From Nymphaea colorata (lineage: Eukaryota; Streptophyta; Magnoliopsida; Nymphaeales; Nymphaeaceae): a stretch of DNA of 64,000 nt. Of this stretch, positions 51,459-52,379 are shown one piece after another. Numbering within the stretch: position 1 is the stretch's first letter; each line of letters starts with the position of its first letter. The translations under genes were made by a program, and so were the position numbers. The notes beneath the pieces were generated by a model. That model was not told the DNA's origin, ran no database searches, and saw nothing but the letters and a program-made list of their open reading frames with translations. The stretch lies in the NCBI RefSeq assembly GCF_008831285.2, contig NC_045150.1, positions 126,001 to 190,000 on the forward strand, read 5' to 3'.

Positions 51459-51466
51459 GTTATGAC

Positions 51467-52317
51467 TAGGGGTGGGCATCTGGCATGGTCAGCTCATCCG
51501 GCCCGATAGCTCGGGTCCCGGCCCAAGCCCAACTCGGCCTGGCCCATTTGAGCCTTCATCCGGGTCCCTTCTGCGTCTTCGACTCCGACGCCCGACGGCC
51601 GCGCTTGTCATCATCTTCTTGAAGGACTTGACGATGCCGGCATTAATGTTGAAGAGATCATCGCGGGTCATGCCAGGTTTGCGGGGGACACCGGCTGGGA
51701 TGATGACCACATCTGAACCCTCCAAGGCTTGCCCTAGCTGATCCTTGCCCATGTACCCAGCCACCTGAAACAAATTATTCACCCAAATAATAAGAAACCC
51801 GAGAACCCAGCTCCCCAGATCTGCAGATACGATGAAGCAAACTCGACAAGGAAGTAAAAACAAAGAAGAAGAGGCTGGGAAATGGGCGGACCTGAGCCAT
51901 GGAATTGATGTGGCTAACATCGGCGGCGACGCTAGGGGTTTCGGCGATATCGTACAGAGCGAGGCTGGAGACGAGGGGATTAAGCTTCATCAGGAGTGCA
52001 AGGGGCTGGCCGATGCCACCTGCAGCACCTAAGACCGCCACCTTCCGATCGGGGCCGCTCGTGGAGGAGAACCTGGGGAGCACGCTCTTGGGAGTGCCGG
52101 CCTACATGTCGCCAGAGAAGGAGGAGGAGGAGGAGCTAAAGGAGGAGGGGTTGGAGCGGGAGACGAAGGGGGAGCGGGCCGGATCAGGCCGGGCCAATCC
52201 GGGCAGCGTCATCTGGCCTGGGCCCGGCCCGGGACCCGGTTTTCCCAGCCCGAACCTTGGCCCAACCAGGCTGGGTACCGGGTATCCGATGACAGCCCGA
52301 CCCGACGCCTAGGCCTA
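51467..52317. mobile_element. hAT-like element carrying a malate dehydrogenase gene fragment
   Basis: Ends TAGGGGTGGGCATCTGG and, from the right, TAGGCCTAGGCGTCGGG agree at 12 of 17 positions. Flanking GTTATGAC (51459-51466) and TTTATAAC (52318-52325) agree at 6 of 8, both differences being compatible with decay of an 8-bp duplication. Subterminal sequence on both sides is packed with GGCCCGG, GGGCCGG and CGGGTCC words. The 851-bp element is GC-rich against AT-rich flanks. It has no transposase; its core is host-derived sequence on the minus strand. Confidence 0.7.
51624..52100 (-). pseudogene. Captured mitochondrial malate dehydrogenase fragment (exon 1, intron 1, part of exon 2)
   Basis: On the minus strand, exon 1 sequence (about 52100-51892) reads from the presequence end into [20 protein letters not shown], the NAD-binding glycine motif, and on to [19 protein letters not shown] 127-bp intron follows (51891-51765, GT...TTTCAG). 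Exon 2 sequence (51764-51624) then reads [19 protein letters not shown] and [20 protein letters not shown], ending after NINAGIVK. That is the order and spacing of plant mitochondrial malate dehydrogenase. The catalytic His and C-terminal half are missing, so no enzyme can be made. Keeping the intron shows it was copied from DNA, not mRNA. The exon frames are still open, suggesting recent capture. Confidence 0.9.
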
Positions 52318-52379
52318 TTTATAACCGATATATCCCTCTAAGCAGTAAAAATACATATTCATTTTTTTGTCCCGCTCAT

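Follow-up and report, generated by a model that had tools for sequence, protein, structure and literature searches.

The block of 851 bp at positions 51467-52317 of the window (the window being the whole stretch of 64,000 nucleotides from Nymphaea colorata that was analysed, C13:126001-190000) raises the question of how a part of a mitochondrial malate dehydrogenase (MDH) gene, with its intron retained, came to lie between transposon-like ends. For the comparison of this block with its possible relatives and donors, genomic sequence totalling 407.8 Mb (783 contigs) was searched. The block very probably represents a Pack-hAT, a small non-autonomous hAT-type transposon forming a chimera of two captured host gene fragments. 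The core of an earlier sequence-only reading, an MDH fragment captured by a transposon, is supported.

The element has a GC content of 0.605, compared to about 0.31-0.36 in its flanks. It ends with TAGGGGTGGGCATC at the left and with TAGGCCTAGGCGTC at the right (read on the reverse strand), i.e. both ends carry short TIRs of the C/TAGGG type, which we take to be hAT-like. The flanking octamers GTTATGAC and TTTATAAC are equal at 6 of 8 positions and represent a decayed 8-bp target-site duplication. All parts of the GC-rich, hAT-like block described in the sequence-only reading (ends, GC content and decayed 8-bp duplication) are present. Judged from its ends and the length of the duplication, the element would belong to the hAT-like transposons as a non-autonomous member. 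Pack-MULEs, which are Mutator-like, have long TIRs and a 9-11-bp duplication, and Helitrons are without TIRs and without duplication and insert between A and T. A Pack-MULE was ruled out by the 8-bp duplications and short TIRs in the family of the element, and a Helitron by the TIRs and 8-bp duplications of the same family. The features of the element are compiled in Table 1. In its neighbourhood a tandem array with a 19/38-bp unit (TTATCTCATACATCTGT..) starts shortly to the right of the element (window 52382-52644), and a tRNA-Arg (TCT) gene is located at window 49889-49962.

Table 1 Features of the element and its borders, with positions in the window
Feature	Position	Strand	Remarks
Target-site duplication, left copy, decayed	51459..51466	.	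GTTATGAC; 6/8 equal to 52318-52325
Left end with TIR TAGGGGTGGGCATC and a subterminal region rich in GGCCCGG	51467..51566	+	2 mismatches to family consensus 19-mer
CML 33-bp piece, FDSDGDG loop region, in opposite orientation to the remaining CML pieces	51567..51599	+	90.9% to L023 4032-4063
CML last codons (FEKMMK in the gene, FKKMMT here)	51608..51624	-	17 bp, 94%, E = 0.36 alone; assignment by position, orientation and frame
MDH exon 2, part	51622..51764	-	4 differences/143 to parent gene
MDH intron, 127 bp, GT..AG retained	51765..51891	-	13 differences/127 to parent, 6 to sister copy
MDH exon 1, part, with NAD-binding motif GAAGGIGQ	51892..52074	-	12 differences/183 to parent
CML/MDH junction, TTC microhomology, frame kept	52069..52071	-	
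CML N-terminal Ser-rich part, holding ATG-TAG	52072..52178	-	within 90% match to C1:40826328-40826449
Right end of the element: GGCCCGG-rich subterminal region and TIR TAGGCCTAGGCGTC (reverse strand)	52179..52317	-	
Target-site duplication, right copy, decayed	52318..52325	.	TTTATAAC

Further copies with these termini, as implied by the earlier reading, do exist. The family consensus 19-mer of the left end was found with at most 1 mismatch at 481 places in the genome (247 + 234), while the reversed control gave 0. The element itself has 2 mismatches to this 19-mer and is thus outside the 481; the family ends include TAGGGGTGGGCATCGGGCC with a partner end. The first 20 of the exact left-end places listed were taken as a sample, and a partner end was sought within 6 kb. 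A right end was found for 14 of the 20 left ends, with one candidate each, and 6 were unpartnered. In the 14 paired samples the 8-bp duplication was perfect in 9 cases, carried one mismatch in 1 case and two in another, and had at least 4 mismatches in 3 cases. Mismatched pairings of the sampled 8-mers, used as control, were never perfect and stayed within 2 mismatches in 1.2%. For a set of 26 loci 5 perfect duplications were seen, a biased count because the best-fitting pair was chosen.

No transposase was recognised among the longest open frames (at least 250 codons) beside 20 left ends, a search that split or broken genes would escape. Pfam searches with the interior frames of L053, L058, L009 and L007 revealed no family at E 0.1, and for the interior frames of L005 an EF-hand was found below the cut-off. 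Beside the exact left end of L046 (C1:1289965 region) a frame matches the transferase family PF02458 (3.5e-7); right end and duplication of this locus are unsure. A scan of the window for end pairs with a near-perfect duplication revealed one convincing other candidate (46322-47766) and a doubtful one (3747-8720). The former is a second hAT-like element of 1445 bp with the ends TAGGGGTGAAC / TAGGGCTGAAC, a perfect 8-bp duplication CTCACAAA, GAGCTCGG-rich subterminal repeats and a CT-rich interior. A match to Agouti (2.7e-4), the sole Pfam match in this second element, is below the curated cut-off and was judged to be due to chance.

The minus strand of the element under study encodes the NAD-binding half of MDH in two exons. 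Both halves were assigned to Ldh_1_N by Pfam (E = 7.7e-15 and 6.3e-13), and when joined they match structures of mitochondrial MDH with E = 2.6e-41. A genome search with the block yielded 42 matches from the best 40 of 77 candidates, and what most of the weaker matches have in common is the right end of the element. Besides the element itself, only C5:13576472-13577102 and C1:40001335-40001787 reach the MDH part among the matches listed. The C1 locus aligns over 453 bp to block positions 51622-52074 only (93.6%, E = 5.5e-196), a match far beyond chance. It represents the parent of the fragment and is a whole gene, whose later exons can be followed as far as the C-terminus (joined exons Ldh_1_C 1.2e-45).

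The boundaries of the MDH pieces were set by alignment to this parent gene, which fixes the arrangement proposed earlier (a partial exon 1, a 127-bp GT/AG intron and a partial exon 2 of mitochondrial MDH on the minus strand). The rest of the MDH gene does not adjoin the block and is absent from the window; the intact gene lies on C1, the window on C13, and blastn with the parts of the C1 locus beyond the aligned 453 bp gave no match in the window. Segmental duplication of the MDH locus was ruled out by the unrelated flanks. Capture from DNA had been proposed since the intron is kept. Indeed, 114 of its 127 positions are equal to the parent intron, and the location of the parent on another contig together with the aligned intron points to copying from DNA.

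A single captured gene, as assumed in the sequence-only reading, does not describe the content of the element. There are two donors, and the MDH fragment sits inside remnants of a calmodulin-like (CML, EF-hand) gene; capture from one donor was ruled out by a genome search with the CML gene. This gene is located on C1, and four EF-hand stretches lie in one open frame of it. Like the MDH gene it is readable in full on C1, outside the element. The CML match of the element extends over 52063-52178 (C1:40826328-40826449, 90%). Since the coding strands of the N-terminal CML part, the MDH fragment and the C-terminal CML part agree, the MDH fragment takes the place of the central part of CML. At the second MDH/CML junction (51622-51624) the triplet CTT is common to both donors, and the frame is kept as well. 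As evidence of template switching the two 3-nt microhomologies are weak.

The search with the CML gene resulted in 32 matches (20 of 20 candidates scored). CML sequence outside the GGAG part occurs at about 18 distinct places, element and C5 copy included, as read from 44 loci after duplicate loci had been merged. The CML gene (L006/L023/L025) was left out of this count. L026 and L029, which have long matches of 71-72% and are probably paralogues, were excluded as well, as were L033, with a match lying mainly in the GGAG part, and all loci matching nowhere but in this GGAG-rich, low-complexity part (query 500-600). Within the count, L011 and L043 are weak, and L012, L018 and L019 resemble near copies of one another. 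Four family members (L050, L054, L056, L063) are filled with GGAG/GGGAGCGGGAGA-like repeats. These repeats could have arisen by expansion of the Ser-rich CML stretch (query 500-600), to which weak matches were obtained for L050, L054 and L063 only.

The second locus reaching the MDH part, C5:13576472-13577102, is a sister copy with 91% identity to the element, the same content and the same junctions. About 2 kb of flanking sequence on each side of the element gave no match to the 9 kb around the sister, and no target-site duplication of the sister was recognisable. The captured fragment is thus found at two unrelated sites, i.e. it has moved with the element. Over the 453 bp of the MDH part, 29 differences to the parent were counted in the element and 40 in the sister, and the two copies differ from each other at 33 positions. 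Common to both copies are 18 of these differences, while 11 are found only in the element and 22 only in the sister. The intron of the sister is also 13 differences per 127 away from the parent, the same number as for the element, and 6 away from the intron of the element. The 18 common differences point to a single capture before the two copies split; some of them may go back to later changes of the parent or to a donor allele that has been lost.

Nested structures are also present in relatives of the element. L039 and L009 share its left segment (TTTGAGCCTTCATYCG..GCCGCRCTTGTC) and carry CML without MDH. In L009 (C12:13373833 region), which is flanked by the perfect duplication CTTGTAGG, 370 bp with 92% identity to C6:4428390-4428756 lie between CML pieces. 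As the catalytic subunit of PP2A starts directly downstream of this C6 sequence (E 2.2e-19), the 370-bp piece is read as PP2A 5′ leader. A second copy related to this CML/PP2A-leader element is located at C7:14722906-14723393 (87%). L013 (C7:3118756 region) contains a 14-3-3 fragment (PF00244, 4.4e-21) with a donor at C10:17351509 (94%). Within this fragment a stretch of about 268 bp, of which 227 bp match C1:39178236-39178462 (90%), stands in place of 60 bp of the 14-3-3 gene. L066 (C6:8082187 region), with the perfect duplication ACTGTCAC, shows an uninterrupted alignment to the 14-3-3 gene over the stretch also captured by L013 (89.6%). It is the insert-free sister of L013, and only for L013 is such a sister in matching donor context at hand. 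Three lineages of the family thus contain a second fragment within a gene captured before (MDH, PP2A leader, C1 fragment). In addition, the middle of a CML element on C5 (L005 913-1747) consists of about 280 bp of foreign-looking sequence. Three of the five identified donors (those of the L013 insert, MDH and CML) are located within 1.7 Mb on C1, at 39.18, 40.00 and 40.83 Mb.

We propose that an ancestral element would have captured CML first. This order is suggested by the relatives that have CML pieces without MDH, including L039 and L009 with the common left segment; a CML-only precursor with exactly the junctions of the element was not found. A break inside the CML part would then have been repaired by copying 453 bp of the MDH gene, intron included, via template switches at 3-nt microhomologies. 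The resulting two-gene element would have moved at least once, mobilised by the transposase of another genomic locus, before both MDH-bearing copies decayed.

Foreign DNA inside one outer element is likewise the product of tandem insertion, by which the MDH fragment would have become flanked by two CML-carrying copies that moved as a unit after loss of the ends facing each other. This route has been proposed for all superfamilies of DNA transposons, hAT examples included (PMC8903248), and is described for Pack-CACTA in a review (PMC13317346). For the Nymphaea element we consider it unlikely, as the MDH gene would have to receive two insertions at a distance of about 450 bp, each with a loss of just that part of CML which preserves the frame. 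Furthermore, both MDH junctions lie inside one captured gene, and no remnant of a TIR or a subterminal region was seen between CML and MDH. L013 and L066 show replacement within a captured gene, with the outer gene parts staying. From the second captures inside captured genes and from this pair in particular we infer that interior repair with template switching is to be favoured over tandem insertion.

That interior repair makes the whole family a serial gene shuffler, in which the middle of a fragment is repeatedly lost and replaced from unlinked genes while the outer parts stay, is a proposition for which we see even chances. If true, nested chimeras would arise stepwise and would be readable as before/after pairs (L066/L013 and L039/element). 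The family would then provide direct sequence evidence, from a plant, that interior gap repair can bring in fragments of unlinked genes.

Since the element is 94% and 90% identical to its MDH and CML parents, respectively, it could also be regarded as a putative source of antisense or small RNA directed against one of these genes, a role that appears distinctly improbable to us.

Both MDH-bearing copies are broken, in different ways. The exon frames had been described as open, which holds for the MDH parts only; the frame into exon 1 is cut in the element by a TAG directly after the CML-derived ATG. The sister shows a 4-bp gap at the position matching the ATG-TAG of the element, its NAD motif is changed from GGIGQ to GGIVQ, and residues of the PAGVP loop are altered, too. 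Changes of the MDH part that are private to one copy amount to 3 N and 5 S in the element and to 11 N and 8 S in the sister (N in 14 of 27 in sum). Compared to neutral expectation this sum gave P values of 0.010-0.044 in simple models and of 0.019-0.103 with methylated-site weighting. The counts thus lean slightly towards fewer amino-acid changes than neutral and leave some room for past constraint, whereas the broken frames in both copies argue against it. The earlier characterisation of the capture as recent or constrained is not borne out: the intron shows 13 differences per 127 positions to the parent, the lesions at the start of the chimeric frame are not the same in the two copies, and the P value of the N:S test varies with the mutation model (0.010-0.103).

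These data also bear on the view that the CML leader, in frame with the NAD-binding part of MDH, constitutes a functional or once-functional chimeric gene which was exapted and kept for a time. Both junctions are indeed in frame, the GT/AG of the intron is intact in both copies and the N:S ratio (14:13) is slightly low. Nevertheless, two in-frame fusions are expected by chance in 1 in 9 cases, so the in-frame junctions are not strong evidence, and mutation at methylated sites can account for much of the N:S value. The fragment is without the catalytic half of MDH, and besides the frame-start lesions of both copies the changes of the sister affect NAD-binding and PAGVP loop residues. A chimeric gene is very improbable, and most likely the element is now without protein function.

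A truncated MDH pseudogene between unrelated repeats, not carried by a transposon, would fit the imperfect duplication of the element but is hardly conceivable in view of the identical arrangement and junctions at the unrelated C5 site, the hundreds of copies of element-type ends and an MDH match that ends where CML starts.

How cut-and-paste transposons acquire unlinked gene fragments is still disputed, and according to a review from 2026 an undiscovered mechanism might still exist (PMC13317346). The Nymphaea family combines hundreds of copies, identifiable donors and sisters with and without the second capture, by which breakpoints become directly readable. As a gene the element is probably dead, and its value is that of a record of mechanism. 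Nymphaea is apparently an early-branching flowering plant, and the plant cases in the work cited here come from maize, rice and grape.

Gene capture by hAT elements, considered much less described in the sequence-only reading, has been reported for grape (PMC2528002), maize (PMC3260210, PMC8903248) and animals (PMC8277862). The element is a well-documented new case of this already known gene capture, with an unusually clear nested history. The maize elements Ds2-22 and Ds-l4-354 (hAT, Ac/Ds) are likewise non-autonomous and carry intron-bearing gene fragments from another chromosome. They have one donor gene each, whereas the Nymphaea element has two nested donors, a sister and a series of relatives (PMC3260210). 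The Pack-hAT elements of maize, with Bg and Ac TIRs, resemble the element in carrying gene fragments, in forming clusters of related copies and in providing examples of sequence acquisition (PMC8903248). The authors of that study, who also surveyed rice and in whose main text Nymphaea is unmentioned, favour tandem insertion, which is a poor fit to the internal replacement in the Nymphaea element. The grapevine family Hatvine-6 resembles the Nymphaea family by its common ends and differing exon/intron pieces of host genes; its copies share a transposase coding sequence, whereas none was seen in the Nymphaea family (PMC2528002). In animals, Pack-TIRs including Pack-hAT-N8_XT carry host fragments with microhomology at the breakpoints (1-36 bp, median 2) like the element described here, and gap filling by template switching has already been proposed for them (PMC8277862). 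Only four multicopy cases are given in that animal study, whereas the Nymphaea case is multicopy with a nested second capture.
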